From contig NZ_CCBB010000001.1 of assembly GCF_000613185.1 (NCBI RefSeq), positions 2,108,001 to 2,172,000 on the forward strand: 64,000 nt of DNA, read 5' to 3'. A program made the position numbers and the translations under genes. Shown piece after piece: positions 5,912 to 31,486 of this stretch (its first letter is position 1; each line of letters opens with the position of its first letter). The stretch comes from Mycolicibacterium cosmeticum. Its GTDB lineage: Bacteria; Actinomycetota; Actinomycetes; Mycobacteriales; Mycobacteriaceae. The notes beneath the pieces were generated by a model. That model was not told where the DNA came from. It made no database searches and saw only the letters and a program-made list of their open reading frames with translations.

Positions 5912-6047
5912 AGGCCGCACAAGTTAGCTGTCAAAAGCAGTAATCGGAGGAACGTCGACGTCAATATCGAATTTTGCAGGTGGGTTTCACGGGAACGGTT
6001 TTGCTCAGGCTGATTCCATCTCATCGATGCAAACGCTTGTCGGCCAG

Positions 6048-6053
6048 TAAGCT
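6048..6053 (+). promoter_or_regulatory. -10 hexamer of UBP zinc-finger gene (leaderless)
   Basis: TAAGCT stands 6 bases before the ATG at 6060, the spacing of leaderless mycobacterial promoters. It supports this start codon. Confidence 0.5.
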
Positions 6054-6059
6054 CGAGCC

Positions 6060-6422
6060 ATGGCCTCTGCTGCGCCCGACGTCGACCCGAATGTGCCACC
6101 CAGCGGTACCGGATGTGTGGAATGTGAGGACGCCGGAGGGTGGTGGGTGCACCTGCGGCGCTGCGCGGCGTGCGGACACATCGGCTGCTGCGACGATTCC
6201 CTCGCGCGTCACGCACAGGCGCATTGGCGCCAGTCCGGGCATCCCGTCATCCGCAGCTTCGAGCCGGATGAGGACTGGTTCTGGAATTACGACACCAACG
6301 CCTACTATGACGGTCCGGAACTGGCTGCCCCGCAATGCCATCCGGTCGAGCAGCCGGTGCCGGGGCCGCGTGGGCGGGTGCCCAGGGATTGGATGGCCCA
6401 GCTGCAGGAGCGCCAGGACTGA
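6060..6422 (+). CDS. UBP-type zinc-finger domain protein
   Basis: This 120-residue soluble protein consists mainly of a UBP-type (ZnF-UBP) zinc finger. Visible metal ligands are C19, C22, C35, C38, C43, H51 and H55 in the pattern CVEC...CAACGHIGCC...H...H, followed by a conserved WFWNY segment. In eukaryotes the fold binds the C-terminus of ubiquitin; in actinobacteria the ligand is unknown. It is divergent from the mce operon and convergent with the oxidoreductase gene, whose stop lies 12 bases away; a weak stem (CTGAGC/GCTCAG, 6419-6438) covers that junction. Confidence 0.88.
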   Translation: MASAAPDVDPNVPPSGTGCVECEDAGGWWVHLRRCAACGHIGCCDDSLARHAQAHWRQSGHPVIRSFEPDEDWFWNYDTNAYYDGPELAAPQCHPVEQPVPGPRGRVPRDWMAQLQERQD

Positions 6423-6434
6423 GCCATCGGACGC

Positions 6435-8000
6435 TCAGCCGCCCAGCACCGCCTGGGCGGCGTTGTAGCCCGGGATGAAGGTGATGCCGGGTCCGCCGTG
6501 GCAGCCGGCGCTGCCGAGGTACAGGCCGTCGATCGGGAGGGGTTGGTCGGCATAGCCGCATGCGCCGGGCCGGTTCGGTCCCATCTGTTCGGGATGGATG
6601 AGGCCGTGGCAGTAGTCCCCGCCGGGCGCGCCGAACATGGTGCCCATGTGTTTGGGCGTGAAGGTGGTGTGCCGGGTAATCAGCTTCTCGAAATCCGGTG
6701 CGATGCGGGTGATCTTCTCGATGACGCGCCGGCCCATCTCGGCTTTGAGTTCACCGTAGGACGCCGCACCGGCTTGGATGGGGAACCACAGCGAGAACGC
6801 CGACACCGCGTGCTTCCCCGGCGGCGCGAGGTCGGGGTCGTGCACCGACGGCAGCTGCATCGCGATCGCCGGGTCGGCGGGCACGATGCCGCGCCGGCTG
6901 TCCTCCCACTGCTGCTGCAACTCCTCAGGGGTGTTGAAAAGACCGATGGCCGATTGCATCTCGGGATCGTTGAGGATGCCGTAGGGCTCGGCGAAGGTGG
7001 GAATACCGTCCAGCGCGAAGTGCATCTGCAGATAGCTGCCGCGGTGGTCGATACGGGCGAAGCGTTCCCGGATGTCGGCGGGAAGGGCGGCGGGGTCGAC
7101 CAGTTCGTTGACGGTGAGGTCGGGGGCGACACCCGAGATCACCACCGGCGCGGTGACGGTGGACCCGTCCTCCAGTCGCACCCCGGTGACGCGGCCGCCG
7201 TCGACCAGGATCTGCTCCACCTTGGCCCGCAGGCGCAGTTCGCCGCCGGCGTCGGTGAGCCGGCGCTGCAGGTGGCCGGTGAGCGCCCCGATACCGCCGC
7301 GCAGCTTCTTCATCAGCACGGCATTCTCGTCCGGGACTGCCAGCCCGAAGGCCAGCGCCGCGGCACTGCCCGGGGTGTCGGGGCCGCGGTAGGTGGTGTT
7401 GACGGCGAGGAAGGACAGCATGCCGCGCAGCGCGCCGTGTTTCTCGCCGTCCGGCAGATAGCGGTTCAGCACATCGGTGACCGAGCCGAACAGCATGTCG
7501 CTGATCGCGGAGCGCTCGAATTCATTTGTGGCGCAGGCATACATCTCGTCGAGTGTGCGGGGCGGCCGCCCCGCGTCGAAGCGGCCCAGCGCCCGGGTGG
7601 GTGCCTGACTCCAGGCCATCAGCCCTGCCATGCCGTTGACCGCTTCGGCGCCGTGCACCTCGTTGAGATGGGTGAGCAACCGCATCGGGTCGGTGTAATA
7701 GACCACCGGATCGTCGCCGATTCCGCGTAGCGACACCGACATCACGTCGACATCGACGCAGGGCAGTTCGTCGAGCCCGAGTTCGGCGCTGACCACCGCC
7801 GAGGTCGGGAACTGCAGCGACCCGGCGATCTCGAACTTGTACCCGTCGAACAATTCGACGGTGGAGGCCATGCCACCGGCGTAGAGCTTGGCGTCCAGGC
7901 ACGCGGTGTGCAGCCCGGCGCGTTGCAACAGCGCGGCGGCGGCCAGGCCGTTGTGGCCCGCACCGATGACGATGGCATCGAAATCCGTGGAAACCGGCAT
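6435..8000 (-). CDS. FAD-dependent phytoene-desaturase-like oxidoreductase
   Basis: The 521-residue product begins with an FAD-binding Rossmann motif (AIVIGAGHNGLAAAALL) and has the layout of CrtI/carotenoid-isomerase-like NAD(P)/FAD oxidoreductases. A C-terminal FAD-binding segment (GLYLGSAGCHGGPGITFI) is also present. The substrate is unknown; the family acts on isoprenoid or other lipophilic polyenes. The gene starts 46 bases downstream of a TetR gene on the same strand, and a perfect 24-base palindrome (8025-8048) lies just before its start, so TetR control is likely. Confidence 0.85.
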   Translation of the reverse strand: MPVSTDFDAIVIGAGHNGLAAAALLQRAGLHTACLDAKLYAGGMASTVELFDGYKFEIAGSLQFPTSAVVSAELGLDELPCVDVDVMSVSLRGIGDDPVVYYTDPMRLLTHLNEVHGAEAVNGMAGLMAWSQAPTRALGRFDAGRPPRTLDEMYACATNEFERSAISDMLFGSVTDVLNRYLPDGEKHGALRGMLSFLAVNTTYRGPDTPGSAAALAFGLAVPDENAVLMKKLRGGIGALTGHLQRRLTDAGGELRLRAKVEQILVDGGRVTGVRLEDGSTVTAPVVISGVAPDLTVNELVDPAALPADIRERFARIDHRGSYLQMHFALDGIPTFAEPYGILNDPEMQSAIGLFNTPEELQQQWEDSRRGIVPADPAIAMQLPSVHDPDLAPPGKHAVSAFSLWFPIQAGAASYGELKAEMGRRVIEKITRIAPDFEKLITRHTTFTPKHMGTMFGAPGGDYCHGLIHPEQMGPNRPGACGYADQPLPIDGLYLGSAGCHGGPGITFIPGYNAAQAVLGG

Positions 8001-19648: not shown

Positions 19649-21067
19649 ATGCCCGACAACGAATTGTGCTGGACTCCCGCAACCGAACTCGCCGACGACG
19701 TCCGTACCCGCTCGATCACGGTCACCGAGATCGCGACCGCGTTCGCCGATCGCATCGAGTCGGTGAACCCCGGTCTGAACGCCTATATCCACTTCGACCG
19801 GGACCAGGTACTGGCCGACGCCGCCGCACTGCACGACGAGTTGACCAGCGGCGCGCCGCGCGGGCCCCTGCACGGCGTCCCGTTCTCGATCAAAGGCCTG
19901 ACCACCATGGCCGGACTGCCGTTCGACTCCTCGCTCAAACCACTGGCGGGACAGGTGGGCAGTCACGATGCCACCGTGGTGACGCGGTTGAAGGAGGCCG
20001 GCGGGCTGTTCCTGGGCAAGACCAACGCCCCGGAGTTCGGTTACTACGGCGGCACCGACAGTCACCTCTACGGCCCCACCCACAACCCGTGGAAGCACGG
20101 CCACACCGCGGGTGGATCCAGCGGCGGCGCGGCCGCGGCCGTCGCAGCGGGCCTGGGACCACTGGCCGAAGGTGCCGACGGTGCCGGATCGGTGCGCATC
20201 CCGGCGGCGATGTGCGGCGTGGTGGGCTTCAAACCGTCGCTGGGCCGCATCCCGCACACGCTCCTGGACGGCAGGCACTACACCCACATCTTCCACGGTC
20301 CGATCACCCGCACCGTCGCCGATGCGGCGCTGATGTTCTCGGTGATGGCGGGGCCGTCGGACTACGACCCGAACAGCGTGCCCGCCGACGGCATCGACTA
20401 CGCGGCAGCCACCGCCGGTGACGTCACGGGGTGGCGGGTCGCCTGGTCGCCCGATCTCGGCCTGGGCCATGTCGATCCAGAGGTGGTGGCGGTATGCGCA
20501 GAAGCGGTGCGGGCCTTCGAATCTCTGGGCGCCACCGTCGAAGAGGCCACCCCGGCATGGGGCAACCCGGAAGAAGCCATGTGGAAGGGGCTGTGGGTTC
20601 CGGGGTACTCGTGTGAGTACGACGTCCTGGACTGGAAATCCCAGCACGGCCAGGTCGACGACAACCTGATCGAGATTTTCGAGCAGGCCGAGACCCTGAC
20701 CGCAGTGGACATCGGCCGGGCTGAGGCGTTCCGCGGCCAGATGTGGGACACCTTCAGCGAATTCATGCGGACCTATGACATTCTGGTCAGCCCGACGCTG
20801 GCGACCCCCACGTTTCCGTTGGAGCGCTTCGCCCCGCACTGGCTCGAAGGGCAGTCGCTGCAACGCCAGCTCCTCGGTTGGCTGCTCACCTACCCGTACA
20901 ACATGACCACCACACCCGCCATCACCGTGCCCGCGGGATTCACCGCCGACGGCCGGCCCGTCGGGCTGCAGATCGCCGGGGCGCACCGCGCCGATGCCGC
21001 CGTCCTGCGCGCCGCGGCCAACTACGAGGCGGCCCGGCCCTGGGCCGACACCAGGCCGGCCGTCTAG
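19649..21067 (+). CDS. Amidase (amidase-signature family)
   Basis: The 472-residue amidase-signature hydrolase has a complete Ser-cisSer-Lys triad: Lys in FSIKG, cis-Ser in the motif TAGGSSGGAAAA, and nucleophilic Ser in GADGAGSVRIPA. It should hydrolyse a carboxamide to acid and ammonia/amine. It faces the seven-gene minus-strand catabolic operon; its TAG stop overlaps the opposing TAG within a shared CTAG (21064-21067). An operator-like inverted repeat precedes it, so it is probably separately regulated but part of the same island. Confidence 0.9.
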   Translation: MPDNELCWTPATELADDVRTRSITVTEIATAFADRIESVNPGLNAYIHFDRDQVLADAAALHDELTSGAPRGPLHGVPFSIKGLTTMAGLPFDSSLKPLAGQVGSHDATVVTRLKEAGGLFLGKTNAPEFGYYGGTDSHLYGPTHNPWKHGHTAGGSSGGAAAAVAAGLGPLAEGADGAGSVRIPAAMCGVVGFKPSLGRIPHTLLDGRHYTHIFHGPITRTVADAALMFSVMAGPSDYDPNSVPADGIDYAAATAGDVTGWRVAWSPDLGLGHVDPEVVAVCAEAVRAFESLGATVEEATPAWGNPEEAMWKGLWVPGYSCEYDVLDWKSQHGQVDDNLIEIFEQAETLTAVDIGRAEAFRGQMWDTFSEFMRTYDILVSPTLATPTFPLERFAPHWLEGQSLQRQLLGWLLTYPYNMTTTPAITVPAGFTADGRPVGLQIAGAHRADAAVLRAAANYEAARPWADTRPAV

Positions 21068-22038
21068 AGTGACGCGAGCCAGAACGGCCAACGCGGGTCC
21101 GCCATTTTCAACCGGGCGCGCATCAGCTTCCAGCAGCCGTACTTGTGATAGTCGAAATCCCATGCCGTACTGAGCTGTTGGTTGACGCATGCCCATAGGC
21201 CCCATTTGGTGTCGGCCAGCGCCCCGCAGACCTGTACCCGGGCGAGCAGGCCGAAATCACTACGACCGTAGAAGTCCTCGACGAGTTCGATGATCTGTTC
21301 CTCGGTATAGAACATCTCGGTGGTCAGCAACGCCAGCTCGTAGGCGCGCTCGTTGTTCGAGGCGAACTCGTAGTCGACCAACTTCATCGGCCCGCCGTCG
21401 GCGACGAGGAAATTACCGGGCATCGGATCGTTGTGGCAGGCAGCCAGATCCAGCCCCGAGGCAAGCAGCGCCGACTTGGCCACCTGGTACTCGCCGAGGA
21501 TCAACTCGGCATCGGCGGGCAGCCGCACCCCGAGCTCGCCGACCTGAGCCAGGTGCTCGTCGATCATGTCGAACATCGTCTTGGTGACGCTGAGCAGCCC
21601 GCCGTCGTGCAGCACCCGGTAGATGTCGATGATCTGATGGGCGACGGCGATATCCTTGAAATCACCGTTGGTGCAGGCCCGGTAGCCCTCCAGGAACTCG
21701 ATCACCTCGACACCGGTGTCGGCATCGAAGTACACCAACTGCGCGCCGATCCCCTTTTCGCCGGCCCGTCGTGCGGCTTCGTTGGCCAGCACCCGGTCGA
21801 TGAAGGTATCGCTGCCCTCGCCGGGGATCTTGAGGAAGTAGCGGGTGTCGGTGCCGGCGACGGTGATGCGCCAGTTGCTGTTCTGCAGGCCACCGAACAC
21901 CGGAGCGTATTCGATGTGCTTGCCGCGCCAGATCTCGATCGCCGCCAACGCGGCTTCCACGCGTCGTTCGACATCGTTGCGTGCGCTGCCGAGCACCCGG
22001 TTACCGGTGGTGTCGCGTGTGGTCGGTGCGGCGGTCAC
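21064..22038 (-). CDS. Choline/aminoglycoside-kinase-like phosphotransferase
   Basis: This 324-residue APH/choline-kinase-fold protein shows the catalytic loop CHNDPMPGNFLV and the metal-binding LVDYEFA. In this superfamily the HxDxxxxN and DxE motifs carry out ATP-dependent phosphorylation of an alcohol. I chose the GTG at 22038 because it overlaps the upstream stop (GTGA). It is the last gene of the operon. A second, quite different kinase of the same fold lies directly upstream, so the two may form a pair or act on two steps. Confidence 0.85.
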   Translation of the reverse strand: MTAAPTTRDTTGNRVLGSARNDVERRVEAALAAIEIWRGKHIEYAPVFGGLQNSNWRITVAGTDTRYFLKIPGEGSDTFIDRVLANEAARRAGEKGIGAQLVYFDADTGVEVIEFLEGYRACTNGDFKDIAVAHQIIDIYRVLHDGGLLSVTKTMFDMIDEHLAQVGELGVRLPADAELILGEYQVAKSALLASGLDLAACHNDPMPGNFLVADGGPMKLVDYEFASNNERAYELALLTTEMFYTEEQIIELVEDFYGRSDFGLLARVQVCGALADTKWGLWACVNQQLSTAWDFDYHKYGCWKLMRARLKMADPRWPFWLASL

Positions 22039-22979
22039 AGGTTGTTCACCCGATCGAAGAACGCTTTCTCGCCGAGACCGGCCCGCGCCCGCAGGAACTG
22101 CCAGTCGGAGAGTTTCGAGTATTCGAGGGTGCCCGGACGCGCGTGGTCCGCGTAGGCGCCGATCAGTCCCCAACGGACACAGTCGGCGACACCGTAGACC
22201 CGCGCGCGGTCGAACAGCGCTTGATCGAAACTCCCCCAGGCCGCCGCGAACACCTCACGCGCCGTCGAGTCGAACGGGCGGACCTCAGCCAGCAGAACGC
22301 CGATATCCTGCAGTGGATCCATCAACGCCGCGACATCCCAATCCACCAGCAACATCCGGCCGTCGTCGGCAAGCAGCACATTCGACACGTTGCCGTCACC
22401 GTGGCACGGCACCAGGTCGAAACCCGTTGCCGCTATCCGCTTCTCGGCCATGACCAGCATGCGCAGCATCCAGTCGAAGTCGGCAGGCAGGGTCACCCCG
22501 TTGGTCGTGGCCAGTGCGGTCAAGGTGCGGATGTCGTCGAAGACGGTGGCCGTGCGGGTAATCGCGCCGAAATCGTGTACCTGCGCCCGTAGCGCGATCA
22601 GCTGTTCCAGCCGGGCGTCGTCGTCGAAGATATCCAGAGTCGCCGTGGATGAGGTGTCGACCAGGTTCTCCAGGACCAGGATTCCGGCGGTGGGATCGGC
22701 CGCGTACACCGCGGGACCCACCCCGCGCAGACCGGCCTCCGCCGCGGCGGCGAATGCGTGCGGAATGTCGATATAGGCGCCCGCGTGGCCGATCATCGAC
22801 TTGACGAAAGCAGCTGACGTCGTGCCGGACTCGTCGTCACCGCGCACATCGAAACACTCGGAGTCCGCACCCCACCAACTCGGGCTGGCCATCGTGGGGG
22901 CGGGATCGGCCGTGATGGCGCCGGTGAACAGGCCCATGGCCCGCAACGGCTGCGCTATCGGCGGCGCGGTGGCACTCAT
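22035..22979 (-). CDS. APH-family phosphotransferase
   Basis: The 314-residue protein has the APH/choline-kinase core motifs PCHGDGNVSNVLL and LLVDWDVA. It starts one base after the second amidase stop and overlaps the next gene by GTGA. It is not close in sequence to its downstream neighbour, so the pair is not a recent duplication. The substrate is probably an alcohol-bearing intermediate of the pathway rather than an antibiotic, given the amidase, hydrolase and symporter context. Confidence 0.84.
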   Translation of the reverse strand: MSATAPPIAQPLRAMGLFTGAITADPAPTMASPSWWGADSECFDVRGDDESGTTSAAFVKSMIGHAGAYIDIPHAFAAAAEAGLRGVGPAVYAADPTAGILVLENLVDTSSTATLDIFDDDARLEQLIALRAQVHDFGAITRTATVFDDIRTLTALATTNGVTLPADFDWMLRMLVMAEKRIAATGFDLVPCHGDGNVSNVLLADDGRMLLVDWDVAALMDPLQDIGVLLAEVRPFDSTAREVFAAAWGSFDQALFDRARVYGVADCVRWGLIGAYADHARPGTLEYSKLSDWQFLRARAGLGEKAFFDRVNNL

Positions 22980-22980
22980 G

Positions 22981-24393
22981 TCAGTTACCTCCTCCGGTGG
23001 AAACGGCCGCCGCGGGCGCAGGCCAGACGATGGTGACGGGACGTTGCTGCTCAAGCCATTTCGTCAAGCGCAACACCTCGCGGTCGGCAAAGCGCGGCCC
23101 GATCACCTGGACACCGACCGGCATGCCGGCGCTCATACCGAAACACAGCGCGCTGGCCGGTTGTGCTGTCTGGTTGAACCACGCGGTGAAACCGCAGTGC
23201 GCCAGCGGATATGCCGGGTCCAGACCGCTGTCCTCGGCGGCGAATCCCACCACCGGCAGGACCGGGGCGATGACGTAGTCGAACGACGCGCAGGCGACCC
23301 GCATCCGCTCGGCCGAGCGGACGACCGCCTCACCATCACGGGCGAAGTCGGTTGCGCGGTAGCCTGCGCCGGGAGCACACCAGTGCCGGATCGCCTGATG
23401 CACCAGGGGCCGCAGATCGGCCCGGATCGACTCGAGCTCGGTGGCCGCGCGCACCTGGAACAGCCGGTCCAGAGCCGGGTAGGGGTCATCGGAGAACACC
23501 GGCGGCATCACCGACACCTCGGCGCCGGCGTCGCGCAACGCGGCCGCCGCATCCTCGACCACCGCCAGCACCTGATCGTCGGCACCGAAGCCGGCACCCA
23601 GCTCGGTGAGCACACCGATGCGAAGGCCCCTGGGCGACAGGGCTTCCCGGGTGTCCGGTGCCGGCTCGGGTGCCAGGCTCCACAGGTCACGGGCGTCCGG
23701 CCGGCTCAGCACCTCGAACATGTCCATCACCTCGTCGACAGTGCGGCCCATCGGCCCGGCGGAACGCATGGTCGACGGCGCGGTGTGTGGTATCCGGCCC
23801 TGGGTGGGTTTGAGGGCCACCAGACCGCAGTGCCCGGCGGGCAGCCGGACCGACCCCGCGATGTCACTGCCGACGGCGCCGAACCCGATACCGGCCGCAA
23901 GCGCGGCGCCGGCACCGGAACTGGACCCGCCGGTGCTGCGCGATAAATCCCACGGGTTGCGGGTGATGCCGTACAACGAGCTGACACCGGCTGCCATCAT
24001 GCCGAAGTCGGGCATGGTGGTCTTACCGAGGATGACGGCACCGGCCTCCTTGAGCCGGGCGGCCGGCGGGGCGTCGACGCTTGCGTCGGGCAGGTCCGCA
24101 TTGGCGGCGCAGCCGTGCCGCCACGGCATCCCGATCGCATTCACGCTGTCCTTGATGGTGACGGGCACGCCGTCCAACGCGCTCAGCGGCGTGCCGTCGG
24201 CCCAGCGTCGCGCCGATGCCTGCGCCGCGGCGTGCGCCCCCGCGGCGTCCAGGTGGGCCATGGCGTTGACGGCCGGGTTGCGGGCTTCGATACGCGCCAG
24301 CGTCAACTCCAGGACCTCTACCGGACTCGTTGCGCCGCTGCGGTATTCGCTGCGCAGGGCATCGGCGTGGCCGTCCAGGATCGAATCGCTCAT
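22981..24393 (-). CDS. Amidase (amidase-signature family), second copy
   Basis: The 470-residue amidase has the triad Lys (VTIKDS), cis-Ser ([12 protein letters not shown]) and nucleophile Ser ([12 protein letters not shown]). It is distinct from the amidase at 19649, so the cluster has two amide hydrolases of one superfamily. The start ATG overlaps the M20 hydrolase stop (ATGA). Expected reaction: hydrolysis of an amide or carbamoyl group in the cytoplasm. Confidence 0.9.
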
Positions 24394-25637
24394 GGGAGTG
24401 TGGCCGCCTCCAGAGCCCCGGTCACCAGCTGCCGCGCGGTGGCCGTCAGCATGCGCAGCCCGGCCAGCAGGTGAGCATCGGTGCTGTACTCATTCTCGTT
24501 GTGGGACACACCGTCGACGCTGGGCACGAACAGCATGACCGTCGGCACCAGCGACTTGAGGTTCACCGAATCGTGCCCGGCCATCGTCGGTAGCGTCCGC
24601 CACCGCAGTCCGAGCTCATCGGCGACGCCACCGGCCAGGGCGATCCCGGCGTCCTGATAGCGGGTGGAGGGTCGCAGGGCCGCCGATTCGATGTCGATGC
24701 GAACCTCGCCGGCCCCGGTGATCGCCGAAATGCGTTGCAGGAAAGATCGGTGCGCAGCTTCGACGGTTTCACCGTCGAGGGCGCGCAGATCCGCCGCCAG
24801 CCGGACCCGCGCCGGCACCACCACGGGAGAGTTGGGCTCGACGGTGAAGCTGCCGACCGAGCCGAGCACCGTGTCGGGGCCGAACTCGTCGGCGACGGCC
24901 CGGACCGCCAGCACCACCTGACTGGCACCCACCAGCGCGTCACGCCGGTAGCGCATATGCGTCGCGCCGGTGTGGGCCTGCTCGCCGTGCACGGTGATGG
25001 CGTACTTGTAGGCCGCCCAGTTCTCGGTGACCACCCCGATATCGAGGTCTTGGTCGATCAGCGTGCGGCCCTGCTCGATGTGGATCTCGGCGAAGGCGCC
25101 GGCCTGCGGCGGGCTATCACCGCCGTGGAACCCGATGGATTGCAATGCTTCCCGGACCGTGATGCCGTCTTTTCCGACGGTGTCGAGGACGGCGTCGGCG
25201 GTCAGCTTGCGGGTGTACACCGCGCTGCCCATCAGGCTCGGCGAGAAGCGCGAGCCCTCCTCGTTGAACCAGTTCACCGCCGCGATGTTGAAGCGGGCCC
25301 CCTCGGGTCGGCTCGCGGCCGCTGCCGCGGCGTAGGCCCCGGCCAGTACCCCGTAGGCGCCGTCGAAACGACCGGATGTCGGTTGACTGTCGAGATGCGA
25401 GCCGAGCAGGACGTACGGTGCGCCCGCGACGATCTCGGCGCAGCCGTACATGTTGCCGACGGCGTCGACACGGCAATCCAGCCCGTGGTGAAAGAACCAG
25501 TCGCGCAACCACTCCCGGGCCCGCCCGTCGGCGGAGGTGGCCGCTTCGCGGTCCACGCCGCCTGCCGCGGTCGCGCCGATCGCCGACAGGGCGGCGAAAT
25601 CGGCGAGAAACGCGGAGTCGGTCAGGCCTGAGGTCAT
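24390..25637 (-). CDS. M20-family Zn-dependent hydrolase (carbamoylase/allantoate-amidohydrolase type)
   Basis: This 415-residue hydrolase of the hydantoinase/carbamoylase branch of M20 shows the metal-ligand motifs [35 protein letters not shown] and TMAGHDSVN. Enzymes of this group split N-carbamoyl amino acids or ureides to release ammonia and CO2. Overlaps at both ends (ATGA with the symporter and with the amidase) place it firmly in the operon. Confidence 0.9.
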
Positions 25638-27190
25638 CGGGTCTCTTCGGCCAGCTCGTGCACCTGGTCCTCCAGCGATACCGGCGCAGTGGGCGCCGCG
25701 ATCCGCATCTTGGTCTTGGCGGCTTCGAACATCTCGTTGACGCGGGCCTTATCGGCATCGTCGGTGCCGATCAGCGCGGCGGCGGCGAGGAAGACGGCCA
25801 GGTTGACCACCAAGCCGACGATACCGCCGGTCAAGCTGCCCAGCCAGCGCACGTCGTCGGGGTAGATCCAGGTCATGACCATCGCGACCAGGAAGCCCGA
25901 GAGCATGCCGGCCACCGCGCCCTGCTTGTTGCCGCCCCGCCAGAAGATGCCCAGGAACAGCGGCACCGCCAGCTGGATCACGCCTTGATAGGAGATCTGG
26001 GCCAGCAGCTGCAGGCGGGTCATGTTGAACGTGGCGTAGGCGACGACACCCGCGGCGATCATGAAGACCAGCATCGAGGTCTTGGCGACCTGGGTCAGCC
26101 GCTTGTCCGACAGCGGCCGCTTGGTCGTGTTGACGAGATCGTTGGCGATCTGCAGACCGCACACCTGCACGCTGCCGTCGATGTGGCCCATGGAGGCCGC
26201 GAAGACGATGGTGATACCGAGGCCGAGCAGCCAGGTGCCGCCGTAGTCGCTCATGATGGTGAACCAGCCCGCCTGTGGGCTCTCGGCGACGTCGGGCATC
26301 ACCGTCGCCGCGATGCCGACCAGCATCAGCAGGGTGTAGAAGACGCCGGAGATCAGCACCGTGCACAGCGTGCCGGACTTGACCGAGCGCACGCTGGAGG
26401 CGGTGTAGATACGCTGGAAACTCGTCGGCCAGCACAGCGATCCGATGACGCCGGTGAAGATCAGGGCGAAGATGTAGAGCGGCCCGTACTTGTCGCCGTC
26501 CCCGGGCAGCACCAGGTACTGGTGTGCGACGTCGTTGAGGTTGGCGATGCTGATCGGACCACCGGCGATGCCGGAGAGCAGAACGACGCACACCACGGCC
26601 GAGAACACGTAGGCCACGGTGCCCTGGAAGGCGTCGGTCATGATCAGACCGCGCATACCCATCCGGACGGTCCAGTACTGCCGGAGCAGGATCACGGCCA
26701 GCCCGACGATCAGGCAGGTGGTGACCGACCAGGCGCCGTCGCTGGCGAGCTCGAAAACCGTTCCGAGGGCCTGCATCCCCAGCACCACCCAGGGGAACAG
26801 GGACACGATGCCGATGACGCTGGCGATGATGCGCACCGCCGGTGAGTCGAAGCGCTTGCCGAGCAGGTCGGGTTGGGACCGCAGGTCGTACTTCTTGCCC
26901 CAGCGCCATGCCCGGGTGGCCATGAAGTACATCATCGCCACACCCAGACTGGAGTACGCCAGGCCGTAGAGGCCGAATACCCCAGCGCCAGTGGCCAATC
27001 CGAAGAAGGCGATGAAGGTCGACCCGGGCCACCACGAGTTCACGTAGCTCATGGCGACATACCACGGTCCGTAGCTGCGACCGCCGACGGCGTACTCGTC
27101 GAAGGTCGGTGATGTCTTCTGTTGGGTCACATAGAGAATGGCGATCACGATGGCGTAGAACACAGCCAGCATGGCGAGCATGATCCACAT
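25634..27190 (-). CDS. Sodium:solute symporter (SSS family)
   Basis: The 518-residue membrane protein of the SSS family has about 13 hydrophobic segments and an N-terminal TM1 with [10 protein letters not shown], typical of SSS permeases. It should import the pathway substrate with Na+. The substrate cannot be told from sequence. It begins one base after the small membrane protein gene and overlaps the hydrolase start. Confidence 0.9.
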
Positions 27191-27191
27191 G

Positions 27192-27470
27192 TCAGCCTCC
27201 GAGGGTTTCTGCGAGTGGTTCCAACGAGTCGTCGTCGAGCTCGCCGCGAATGTCTTCGACGATGTAGAACGCCGCCAGGGTCAGCCCGAGCACGAGGGCG
27301 TCGATGATCCAGTACATGACCGCGAACGGAATGCCGAGCACCAAGGCGCTGCTGCCGCTGCCCCACAGGTAGAGCGGCGGAAAGATGGCGAACAGCAGCG
27401 CGACGGCATAGAGGGTGCCGAAGAAGATGACGATCGACCGGCGGCTGAGCCCTCGAATGAAATCTTTCAC
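27192..27470 (-). CDS. Small two-helix membrane protein associated with the symporter
   Basis: The 92-residue product has two predicted transmembrane helices (about 12-37 and 47-70) with PPLYLW between them and an acidic tail. Small proteins of this type (DUF3311/DUF485-like) are often encoded next to SSS symporters and are thought to be accessory subunits; the family call here is tentative. The GTG start at 27470 overlaps the phosphatase stop as GTGA. Confidence 0.72.
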   Translation of the reverse strand: MKDFIRGLSRRSIVIFFGTLYAVALLFAIFPPLYLWGSGSSALVLGIPFAVMYWIIDALVLGLTLAAFYIVEDIRGELDDDSLEPLAETLGG

Positions 27471-28258
27471 AATGGAATTCCTTGTCGCTCGGGGGTTTCG
27501 GATCCCACATGGGACAACAGCGTGTCGTGCAGGAGACCGTTGCTGGCGATTCCGTTGCCGGCGTCGAACACCCGCCGACGGTCCAGGCTGGTGAAGCGGC
27601 CGCCGGCTTCCTCGATGATGACCGGCATCGGTGCCAGGTCGTACGGTTGCGCCCGGTAGTCCACCACGGCGTCCGCCTGTCCGCAGGCCACCATCGCGTA
27701 TCCGAACGCGTCGCCCCAGGTGCGCAGCACGGCACCCTGGGTGTGCAGGCCGTCGATGATCTCTGGATCCCAGTCCTCCAGCCAGGTGGCCATCACGTAC
27801 GCGCCGTCGAGGGCCTCGTGACGCGAGACCCGGGCCGGTGCGCCGTTGCGCCAGCACCCCCCACCGCGCTCGGCGTGCACCAGGGTGTCGGCGCTGGGCA
27901 GGTTGATCAGCCCGAAGACGATCTCGTCACCCTCTTGGACGGCGATGAGATTGGCGTACAGCGGTACCCCGCGGATGAAGGATTTGGTTCCGTCGATCGG
28001 GTCGACGATCCACCGATACGCCGAGGTGCCCTGGGTGTCCGGGTATTCCTCGCCGGTGAAACTGTCCGCGGGGAACGCGCCGGCCACCGCCTCGCGCATC
28101 GCCAACTCGATCTCCCGGTCGGCCCGGGTGATCGGCGATCCGTCGGTCTTGGCCTGGACCGAGAGGTCCGGTGTGGCGAAGTACCGGCGCGAGATATCGC
28201 CGGCGACCTCGGCCAGCTCGAGGGCGAGCCGGACACGATCAGCACGGTTGTCGCTCAC
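27467..28258 (-). CDS. Inositol-monophosphatase-family phosphatase (HisN/IMPase-like)
   Basis: The 263-residue Mg-dependent phosphatase has the IMPase motifs GEEYPD, WIVDPIDGTKSF and QPYDLAPMPVIIEEAGG. Relatives act on inositol phosphate, histidinol phosphate or PAP. I chose the GTG at 28258 because the length then fits the family; an ATG further upstream (about 28294) lies in the operator. It is the first gene of the operon, which also contains two kinases, so a phosphorylated intermediate seems likely. It might instead be a second histidinol phosphatase. Confidence 0.85.
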   Translation of the reverse strand: MSDNRADRVRLALELAEVAGDISRRYFATPDLSVQAKTDGSPITRADREIELAMREAVAGAFPADSFTGEEYPDTQGTSAYRWIVDPIDGTKSFIRGVPLYANLIAVQEGDEIVFGLINLPSADTLVHAERGGGCWRNGAPARVSRHEALDGAYVMATWLEDWDPEIIDGLHTQGAVLRTWGDAFGYAMVACGQADAVVDYRAQPYDLAPMPVIIEEAGGRFTSLDRRRVFDAGNGIASNGLLHDTLLSHVGSETPERQGIPL

Positions 28259-28273
28259 ACGTAACACCCTTGG

Positions 28274-28295
28274 GATGAACCATTTCTGGTTCATC
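28274..28295. promoter_or_regulatory. Palindromic operator between GntR regulator and catabolic operon
   Basis: GATGAACCA and TGGTTCATC are perfect 9-base arms around TTTC. The site lies 16 bases before the operon start codon and between two divergent genes, one of them the GntR/HutC regulator, whose family binds such palindromes. Confidence 0.75.
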
Positions 28296-28422
28296 GGGCC
28301 ACTTGTAAACGTTGCGTAACACATCCGACGCGGATCTTTACATCGCCAACACGCGGACACGACACGCCCGGGCTAGCGTGACATGACGGTCCCCGCGCGG
28401 ATGACACAGGAAGGGGTACGTC

Positions 28423-29196
28423 ATGCTCGTGCACGAGCAAGCGCAGCAGGCCCTGCGTCGGCTGACCGAGGAACTCGCCGAGCGCGGCGAGCACCGGTTG
28501 CCGACCGAACGCGCGCTGGCCGAACGCCTGGGAATGTCGCGGACCACGGTGCGCCGGGCACTCGATCTGCTCGAACGCGAGCACCGGATTCGCCGGGTCA
28601 AGGGCCGCGCCGGCGGCGCCTACCTGACCGACGTCACCCAACGCGAGGCGTCACCGCAGGCGGCCCGGCCGTTCTGCCAGTCCCACAGCATCGTGCGCAG
28701 CTTGAACACCGTGAAGGGAATCCCGGAGATCCTGCACGATCAGGGCTTCCGGGACGGCACCACCGTCATCCGGGCCGGACTGGTGGCCGCGCCGGCGCCG
28801 GTCGGTTCGATCCTCGGGGTCGCCGACGGCGAGGCGGTGGTGTCGCTGCTGCGGTTGCGGCATGCCGACGGGGAGACCCTCTCCCTGGAGCAGATGTACC
28901 TGCGGCCCGAGTTGGCCGGCGTGTTGCGCACCGGGATGACCTCGGTTTACCGCACCTTGCGCACCCAGTTCGGGGTGGAGATCTGTGTCGCCGACGAGTC
29001 GATCGAGGTGGCCAGCGTCTCCAGTGCGGAAGGGAAGTTGCTCGGGCGGCCCGCTGGCACGCCGGTCCTGAAACTGGAACGCCGGGGTTTTGACCAGCGC
29101 GGCCGGGCAATCGAGTATTCCGTCGACCTGTTCCGCGCCGACCGCACCCGCCTGCACGTGCGGACGCAATCTCCGGTGACCGCGCAGGCGATGTGA
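28423..29196 (+). CDS. GntR-family (HutC subfamily) transcriptional regulator
   Basis: The 257-residue protein has an N-terminal GntR winged helix (about residues 5-70; LPTERALAERLGMSRTTVRRA) and a C-terminal UTRA ligand domain (about 85-245). HutC-type repressors usually respond to a pathway substrate or sugar phosphate. It is divergent from the catabolic operon, with a perfect palindrome in the 164-base gap. A good Shine-Dalgarno (AAGGGG) precedes the ATG. Confidence 0.9.
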   Translation: MLVHEQAQQALRRLTEELAERGEHRLPTERALAERLGMSRTTVRRALDLLEREHRIRRVKGRAGGAYLTDVTQREASPQAARPFCQSHSIVRSLNTVKGIPEILHDQGFRDGTTVIRAGLVAAPAPVGSILGVADGEAVVSLLRLRHADGETLSLEQMYLRPELAGVLRTGMTSVYRTLRTQFGVEICVADESIEVASVSSAEGKLLGRPAGTPVLKLERRGFDQRGRAIEYSVDLFRADRTRLHVRTQSPVTAQAM

Positions 29197-29401: not shown

Positions 29402-29833
29402 TCACGGTTGGAGATCTACGAGGTGTGCGACTGCGACCGCACTCAGGGGTGTCGCGCGGCGCGTCTCGTCGTCGACTTGCACGATGACTGTACGGGCGGA
29501 GGCTACACATCGGTCTCGTTGAAAGAGAGCTTGCGCCAGGGTGAATGAGGTGCGGCCGACCGACTCAACGCTCGTGCCGATAGCGACCTCGCCGGGCCAG
29601 GTCAACTCCCCGCGAAAGTCCAGCTCCAGACGGGCGATAACAAAGGACTTGTTTGGTTCGACGATGCCACCGTCAGCAGCGTAAAGAAGTTCGACGCGAC
29701 CGGTTTCCAGCGCCGTCGAAAAGACCGAATTGTTGACGTGCCCTTGCCGATCGGTATCTGCGTAACGCAACTTGTCGTAGGCATGCAAGGAAAACTGTGA
29801 CAGCGTCGGGGCTTCGTCCATGGCGGTGTCCAC
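29402..29833 (-). CDS. Acyl-CoA thioesterase (4HBT hotdog family)
   Basis: The 143-residue hotdog-fold protein has the 4-hydroxybenzoyl-CoA thioesterase motif YADTDRQGHVNNSVF with the catalytic Asp. It should hydrolyse an acyl-CoA. An alternative ATG lies at 29821. The gene stands alone, with a palindrome (29872-29889) about 40 bases upstream. The 205-base gap on its 3' side to the GntR gene has no gene that I can support. Confidence 0.85.
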   Translation of the reverse strand: MDTAMDEAPTLSQFSLHAYDKLRYADTDRQGHVNNSVFSTALETGRVELLYAADGGIVEPNKSFVIARLELDFRGELTWPGEVAIGTSVESVGRTSFTLAQALFQRDRCVASARTVIVQVDDETRRATPLSAVAVAHLVDLQP

Positions 29834-30943: not shown

Positions 30944-31020
30944 TGGTGGCCAGGGCCGGGATCGAACCGGCGACCTTCCGCTTTTCAGGCGGACGCTCGT
31001 ACCAACTGAGCTACCTGGCC
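30944..31020 (-). tRNA. tRNA-Phe (GAA)
   Basis: The cloverleaf is complete: acceptor GGCCAGG/CCTGGCC, anticodon loop CTGAAAA giving anticodon GAA, and T loop TTCGATC. The 3' CCA is encoded in the DNA. It is the last of three tRNA genes on the minus strand. Confidence 0.95.
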
Positions 31021-31067
31021 GGAAGGCGCCGGTCTCTCGACCGAGCAAGCCTTACGCCGCAATACTG

Positions 31068-31141
31068 CGACCCTGACGGGACTCGAACCCGCGACCTCCG
31101 CCGTGACAGGGCGGCGCGCTAACCAACTGCGCCACAGGGCC
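31068..31141 (-). tRNA. tRNA-Asp (GTC)
   Basis: The acceptor GGCCCTG/CAGGGTC and anticodon loop CTGTCAC give anticodon GTC. The discriminator base is G and CCA is not encoded. It lies between tRNA-Glu and tRNA-Phe, an order seen in mycobacteria. Confidence 0.95.
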
Positions 31142-31179
31142 TTGCTCTTCCTGCGTGCTCCGACGTTGCCGTCGTTGCG

Positions 31180-31252
31180 TACCCCCAACGGGATTCGAAC
31201 CCGTGCTACCGCCGTGAAAGGGCGGCGTCCTAGGCCACTAGACGATGGGGGC
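31180..31252 (-). tRNA. tRNA-Glu (TTC)
   Basis: The acceptor GCCCCCA pairs with TGGGGGT (a G-T pair at the end), and anticodon loop CTTTCAC gives anticodon TTC. It is the first tRNA of the minus-strand cluster. CCA is not encoded. Confidence 0.95.
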
Positions 31253-31410
31253 CTAATCCGAATTCCTCCGGGGTACTCGCAACTTCGTTCCGTTGGGAGC
31301 TTCGATAGCTTAGGACACGGCCGCCAGAAATCCCAAACGGGGTCCCCCCGCACTGCTCACCCCGGCCCTGCGGCGGCCCCGCGACGGCAGGCAGTATCCT
31401 GTTGCTCCAC

Positions 31411-31486
31411 GCCCCTATAGCTCAGTCGGTAGAGCTACGGACTTTTAATCCGCAGGTCCCAGGTTCGAGCCCTGGTGGGGGCACCA
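31411..31486 (+). tRNA. tRNA-Lys (TTT)
   Basis: The tRNA reads from GCCCCTA to the encoded CCA; anticodon loop CTTTTAA gives TTT. A TATCCT hexamer at 31395-31400 fits its -10 element. It is divergent from the tRNA-Glu cluster. Confidence 0.95.

Follow-up and report, generated by a model that had tools for sequence, protein, structure and literature searches.

A module of kinase and amide hydrolase genes in Mycolicibacterium cosmeticum and its likely link to ethanolamine metabolism

What is consumed by a bacterial operon that encodes an importer, amide hydrolases, two small-molecule kinases and a phosphatase side by side? The question is raised by a locus of Mycolicibacterium cosmeticum (source genome 6.46 Mb), at positions 19649 to 29196 of a 64,000-nucleotide stretch of contig NZ_CCBB010000001.1, referred to here as the window. 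Seven minus-strand genes are packed tightly in the order HisN-like phosphatase, small membrane protein, SSS symporter, M20 amidohydrolase, amidase, kin2 and kin1 (the two kinases), and a GntR-type regulator gene diverges from them. The parts come from known families, and the set is best read as a catabolic operon feeding ethanolamine metabolism. It is probable that the operon imports, phosphorylates and hydrolyses a small ethanolamine-containing amide or ureide under GntR control; the product that carries the nitrogen would most likely be ethanolamine or phosphoethanolamine. A first-pass annotation had proposed that a nitrogenous compound is taken up and degraded in steps by way of a phosphorylated intermediate, a reading that the comparison of related loci favours. 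It recognised no named pathway, and a literature search of titles and abstract openings returned no characterised operon with the same gene set. What is new here is the fate of the product: different lineages attach different ethanolamine exits to the same core.

Which genes point to ethanolamine? A tblastn genome scan with ten kin1 orthologues (E≤1e-3) detected a relative encoded in 294 stretches, of which the best 80 were annotated with a gene caller and by clustering; neighbours were counted within 10 kb of kin1 in the available stretch. A phospho-lyase of the class-III aminotransferase fold is present in 29 of these 80 loci. The best PDB match of one member is 5g4i, labelled 'phospholyase' (379 bits), which we take to be an Arthrobacter enzyme; the human ethanolamine-phosphate phospho-lyase 6tor follows with 340 bits. 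In NCBIfam the same protein is best matched by the PRK06148/PRK06149 models of about 1000 positions (485 bits), and the phosphonate ammonia-lyase model PbfA is a poorer match (206 bits). EutB is found in five loci, directly downstream in three of them (L093, L146 and L150). A glutamine-synthetase-like gene occurs in eight loci, seven of which also carry an iron alcohol dehydrogenase, and in Arthrobacter U41 genes for a glutamine-synthetase-like protein, a gamma-glutamyl hydrolase and an aldehyde dehydrogenase adjoin the core. Ten loci carry a copper amine oxidase (annotated as 'primary-amine oxidase'). At least one of phospho-lyase, EutB and the glutamine-synthetase-like gene is present in 33/80 loci, and the count rises to 37/80 when the copper amine oxidase is added.

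The strongest single case is Rhodococcus ruber (L093), where the gene order is phosphatase, small protein, SSS symporter, M20, amidase, kin2, kin1, phospho-lyase, EutB and EutC, with 4-base overlaps at kin1/phospho-lyase/EutB/EutC. In Paracoccus yeei the overlaps are 1 base at kin1/EutB and 4 bases at EutB/EutC, the order in Shinella sumterensis is kin1-hisN-EutB-EutC, and on Ach5 pAt hisN and EutB lie 9 bases apart. Twelve annotated plasmid regions were inspected, including Ach5 pAt, pAoF64/95, pRiA4b, pRi_26-59 and pRL12. EutB is encoded in five of them (L069, L071, L198, L199 and L202); the L069 copy scores above the cut-off of its model, and the copies of L069 and L202 are about 10 kb off and on the other strand.

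Could the released amine be a different small amino alcohol, such as 1-amino-2-propanol or 2-aminopropanol, accepted by the same lyases? EutBC and phospho-lyase take some homologues of ethanolamine, and copper amine oxidases are broad in their substrates. Ethanolamine, however, is the substrate common to EutBC, phospho-lyase and the GlnA4 route (PMC6529630), and another amino alcohol is considered unlikely.

The operon of the window itself has neither a phospho-lyase nor EutB/EutC. Are the exit enzymes encoded elsewhere in the genome? Two EutB copies are, one in a permease-EutBC-aldehyde dehydrogenase operon and the other in a further EutBC pair. At a further place a permease gene and a phospho-lyase gene form a pair, from which the gene of an APH-family kinase diverges (contig C3, 310748; L190:4876-8945). 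In M. cosmeticum the ethanolamine or phosphoethanolamine would be finished by such enzymes, and in some relatives by enzymes encoded inside the operon. A 962-aa protein encoded on contig C1 of the same genome (L193:4651-7539), with APH kinase and class-III aminotransferase domains, resembles a kinase/phospho-lyase fusion.

The exit enzymes were then counted in 35 cluster genomes, namely that of the window and those of 34 actinobacterial loci among the best 80. EutB is present in 25 of them, and EutB or a phospho-lyase (E≤1e-100) in 32; seven of the ten genomes that lack EutB have a phospho-lyase at this threshold. The Corynebacterium (L109) and Microbacterium (L130) genomes have no EutB and carry a phospho-lyase inside the cluster. 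Of 296 genomes sampled evenly from the same genus, 14 have kin1 (E≤1e-80). With kinship and genome size uncorrected, a phospho-lyase is present in 11/14 genomes with the cluster versus 87/282 without it (Fisher p=0.0005), and a phospho-lyase or EutB in 12/14 versus 144/282 (p=0.0096). Removal of the window genome and its near-twin G697 leaves p values of 0.0027 and 0.026, respectively.

What do the proteins themselves resemble? The gene positions and tight packing given by the first-pass annotation agree with an open reading frame (ORF) listing, translation and a codon-based gene caller: minus-strand neighbours overlap by 4 bases at 22035, 24390, 25634 and 27467 and are 1 base apart at 22980 and 27191. 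Pfam likewise supports the families that it had named (two amidases, M20, SSS, two kinases, inositol monophosphatase and GntR). The kin1 product (21064..22038, minus strand) matches PF01633 (Choline_kinase/APH) with 61.5 bits against a cut-off of 29, its top PDB match in a profile search is 3dxq, of the choline/ethanolamine kinase family, and K70, D204, N209 and D222 are invariant in an alignment of 42 sequences. Its tandem paralogue kin2 (22035..22979, minus; 22937 is the start in an alternative gene call) resembles it at about 30%, matches Pfam APH and has the choline/ethanolamine-kinase fold. Sequence and fold matches with intact catalytic residues thus place these kinases in the choline/ethanolamine kinase family, and by sequence both are choline/ethanolamine-kinase-like. 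An earlier guess that choline-type compounds might be the substrate came close as far as the kinases are concerned; the likely product is now narrowed to ethanolamine or phosphoethanolamine. A kinase pathway of the thiamine or guanitoxin type, with M20 as a deformylase, has also been considered, since kin1 matches the guanitoxin kinase GntI (NF041256) with 88 bits and the thiamine kinase ThiK (TIGR02721) with 39.8 bits. These scores are far under the cut-offs of 357 and 299.45, the annotations of the 12 plasmid regions name no thiamine gene, and such a pathway is very improbable.

The hydrolases are of two kinds. The amidase-signature hydrolase within the operon (22981..24393, minus) matches PF01425 with 272.9 bits and NF005450 with 471.2 bits (cut-off 458). 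A second one (19649..21067, plus; PF01425, 338.5 bits) is an optional member that faces the operon, as had been annotated, and converges on kin1 with a 4-base overlap; its closest PDB sequence is the aryl acylamidase 4yj6 (236.6 bits). The M20 protein (24390..25637, minus) belongs to the hydantoinase/carbamoylase family, with 283.2 bits for the curated model TIGR01879 (cut-off 204) and 427.9 for NF006772 (cut-off 424), and falls under the cut-off for the allantoate deiminase AllC (TIGR03176; 191.4 vs 597.75). The phosphatase (27467..28258, minus; PF00459, Inositol_P, 164.9 bits) is of the inositol-monophosphatase family and scores under the cut-off for the histidinol-phosphatase HisN (TIGR02067; 232.6 vs 275.15). 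Inspection of the translations by eye finds the motifs that we take to be catalytic in these families: Lys-Ser-Ser in the amidase, the metal-site motifs GSHLDS, FDG, NEEG, HIEQ and SHNE in M20, and DPIDGT in the phosphatase. The presumed importer, an SSS-family symporter (25634..27190, minus; PF00474, SSF, 73.6 bits), is under the cut-off for the pantothenate symporter PanF (TIGR02119; 82.9 vs 328.05). The small membrane protein (27192..27470, minus), presumably its partner, has no Pfam or NCBIfam match; a relative of it is present in 30 of the 31 loci that carry the symporter. Inference of the substrate from transporter relatives was tried and rejected: an Opp-type binding protein resembles peptide, nickel and opine binders, none of them close.

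How might these proteins act together? The symporter and its small partner would import a small ethanolamine-containing amide or ureide, which could be an N-acyl- or N-carbamoyl-ethanolamine-type compound. The two kinases would phosphorylate it before it is cut, and M20 and/or the amidase-signature hydrolases would then split the bond or bonds of the phospho-amide to yield phosphoethanolamine. This would go to a phospho-lyase, or through the HisN-like phosphatase to ethanolamine and on to EutBC. Why should phosphorylation come first? The EutBC operons that were inspected contain the two kinases and the phosphatase beside an enzyme for free ethanolamine, therefore phosphorylation would serve an earlier step. 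Since phospho-lyase operons need phosphoethanolamine and EutBC operons free ethanolamine, kinases acting on the uncut amide are the simplest fit to both.

Alternatively, the operon might be two parallel modules in one regulon, with kin1 and kin2 handling free ethanolamine (kinase, then phospho-lyase) and the amidases and M20 salvaging unrelated amides or ureides for nitrogen. The kinase matches are choline/ethanolamine kinases, kinase genes adjoin stand-alone phospho-lyases elsewhere (L190 and L194), and M20 or the amidase is absent from some loci, all of which would suit this arrangement. Two observations speak against it: at least one amide hydrolase is present in the available stretch of 78/80 loci, and operons of the EutBC type would phosphorylate ethanolamine and then dephosphorylate it again. 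Parallel modules are thus judged rather unlikely. The two exceptions are L136, which is cut at kin1 by a contig end, and L091, where the contig ends just past kin1 and neither a hydrolase nor kin2 is found in the 10 kb upstream of kin1.

The single-pathway reading may be taken one step further. Tentatively, the pathway is phosphate-gated: the hydroxyethyl end would be phosphorylated before hydrolysis, M20 would read the phosphate where its relatives read a carboxylate, and phosphoethanolamine would be a branch point whose exits (a phospho-lyase, the phosphatase with EutBC, gamma-glutamylation or an amine oxidase) can replace one another. Two positions to which we presume roles in M20 relatives are the Arg of D-x-R and the Asn of N-V-I-P. 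The arginine is kept in the window; the asparagine is replaced by Val, and Val or Ile stands there in 24 matched actinobacterial sequences. Eight other sequences matched by the M20 motif search retain the Asn. As a marker of M20 specificity the change holds in the matched actinobacterial sequences only, and it is therefore not pathway-defining.

Is there a common control element? As the first-pass annotation had noted, a regulator of the HutC type (GntR/UTRA; 28423..29196, plus; PF07702, 105.5 bits; PF00392, 40.5 bits) and a perfect palindrome, GATGAACCA-GAAA-TGGTTCATC (28274..28295), sit at the divergent end. Its 13-mer core, AACCAGAAATGGT, is exact in 25/80 loci (mycobacteria, rhodococci and one Nocardioides), and also in L037, whose contig seems to be that of L075. 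In phosphatase-headed operons its place is immediately upstream of the phosphatase gene, or inside an over-extended call (L076, L083 and L084). In Rhodococcus, where the upstream stretch of the amine oxidase is available in four loci, an extra copy with at most 1 mismatch begins about 60 bases before a small gene-copper amine oxidase pair in three (L088, L089 and L097) and is inside the small gene as called in L087; the mismatch scan covered the amine oxidase loci other than L116 and L122. Two Gordonia loci have three copies each, with 1 to 2 mismatches, at promoter positions preceding the second amidase, the small protein-symporter pair and an amidase-kin2-kin1-phospho-lyase-HAD unit. As a control, 1.69 Mb contain 16 occurrences of the reversed motif at no more than 2 mismatches. 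A 17-base operator has one exact site, one with 1 mismatch and one with 2 in the M. cosmeticum genome versus two sites of the reversed control pattern, and seven sites versus zero in G449, another of the six mycobacterial genomes searched. AACCAGAAATGGT is probably the operator of the operon's GntR, which presumably binds it and through it would control the operon. The small gene of the Rhodococcus pairs (L088:429-797, L097:465-833) encodes a His-containing protein and shares 4 bases with the copper amine oxidase gene, with the element copy before it.

Could the core of the palindrome be mere phosphatase coding sequence? An alternative in-frame ATG of the phosphatase gene, at 28294, is overlapped by the palindrome. 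Of the 24 loci that have both motif and phosphatase, 10 carry the motif in the phosphatase frame and 14 do not, and only five have an ATG ahead of it. Coding sequence is therefore an insufficient explanation, although in the window and in those five loci the phosphatase could start within the palindrome. In Nocardioides (L101) the gene call that spans the element on the plus strand is artefactual, and a GntR-like ORF (5960-6757, minus) adjoins the element.

How widely is the module distributed? The same gene set and order in other actinobacteria, which the first-pass annotation had proposed to look for, is seen in 14/14 mycobacterial loci among the best 80 (GntR and all seven minus-strand genes). 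The nearest kin1 relatives are from Mycolicibacterium sp. J2 (99%), a groundwater Mycobacterium metagenome-assembled genome (96%) and M. canariasense (95%). The plus-strand amidase adjoins kin1 in nine of the 14, is missing from L080, L081, L083 and L084 and has moved in L082. Matches of about 33% identity aside, the flanking genes of the window recur, within the available stretches, in L072 and L073 only. Since the gene set is constant and its surroundings differ, it behaves as a transferable module. The earlier term 'island' therefore suits the flanks, but not the composition, with a GC fraction of 0.674 in the cluster and 0.679 in the window. Past gntR the window has a thioesterase-like gene (29402-29833) and, 1.1 kb further, genes for tRNA-Phe, -Asp and -Glu (minus) and tRNA-Lys (plus) at 30944-31486.

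Beyond mycobacteria, the core consists of two choline/ethanolamine-type kinases with M20 and/or an amidase-signature hydrolase; rhodococci, Gordonia, Bradyrhizobium and Rhizobium have it, as do pAt and Ri plasmids of Agrobacterium, and its importers and regulators differ there. M20 of the cluster type is present in 71/80 loci and a phosphatase relative in 40/80, and kin1 is matched by 100 plasmid records (33 Agrobacterium, 30 Rhizobium). In Salipiger (L139 and L125) the kinase pair has as neighbours an amidase gene, urease genes and the gene of a binding protein of the urea/amide type, and L144 and L148 have the same gene clusters. In Caballeronia/Burkholderia (L145, L147 and L136) an AmiR-type regulator, a UrtA/AmiC-like protein, an acetamidase-family gene and a urea-type ABC transporter are encoded beside kin1. 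These AmiC/AmiR-like, transporter and urease genes fit an amide or urea theme and are not general.

Several observations weigh against an ethanolamine-yielding amide pathway. None of the four exits is in the available stretch of 43/80 loci, some of which are cut by contig ends, and the EutB genes of L139 and L143 are near the edge of the stretch and on the opposite strand. Three cluster genomes (G454, G456 and G459) have neither EutB nor a phospho-lyase at E≤1e-100; weaker phospho-lyase matches are found in G454 (1.9e-90) and G456 (8.6e-83) and none in G459. EutB alone is not enriched among the 296 same-genus genomes (7/14 vs 114/282, p=0.33; 0.58 without the window genome and G697), and the uncorrected p values given above count here as well. 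In six mycobacterial genomes no match to the 17-base operator (at most 2 mismatches) is found at the EutB or phospho-lyase places; those genes therefore show no sign of belonging to the regulon there. L092 and L095 carry the element, yet no GntR of the cluster family is called there. To these may be added the loci that lack M20 or the amidase, and the fact that no gene points to the acid half of the substrate. The retention of two kinases weighs here too, and might reflect two hydroxyl groups, two substrates in series or a heterodimer.

If the proposed pathway is correct, a hitherto unassigned gene neighbourhood of actinobacteria and proteobacteria is linked to ethanolamine metabolism, a role is suggested for tandem 'choline kinase family' genes, and an unrecognised ethanolamine-bearing nutrient would exist in soil and on plants. 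If the phosphate-gated form also holds, the module would be a widespread, transferable ethanolamine supplier of soil and plant-associated bacteria, present also on pAt and Ri plasmids of Agrobacterium. A conserved control element and a compact set of genes put the substrate within reach.

How does the module compare with known systems? With the hydantoinase/carbamoylase M20 family (TIGR01879) it shares a score over the cut-off, the metal-site motifs and the D-x-R arginine, whereas the N-V-I-P Asn is Val in the window. The Eut pathway is joined to it where EutBC follows the kinases (R. ruber, P. yeei and S. sumterensis) or EutB follows hisN (Ach5 pAt). In contrast to that pathway, the module would feed on an amide, the window operon is without EutBC, and the annotations of the 12 plasmid regions name nothing that belongs to a microcompartment. 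Gamma-glutamylation of the GlnA4/Puu type (PMC6529630) has its likeness in Arthrobacter U41, where the core is accompanied by genes for a glutamine-synthetase-like protein, a gamma-glutamyl hydrolase and an aldehyde dehydrogenase; in the module this route would be only an exit. The ethanolamine kinase and phospho-lyase pathway (5g4i/5g4j; human ETNPPL, 6tor) likewise has a choline/ethanolamine-type kinase near a phospho-lyase of the class-III aminotransferase fold. To this pair the module adds an importer, M20, one or more amidases, a second kinase and a phosphatase, and in M. cosmeticum the phospho-lyase is encoded elsewhere in the genome.

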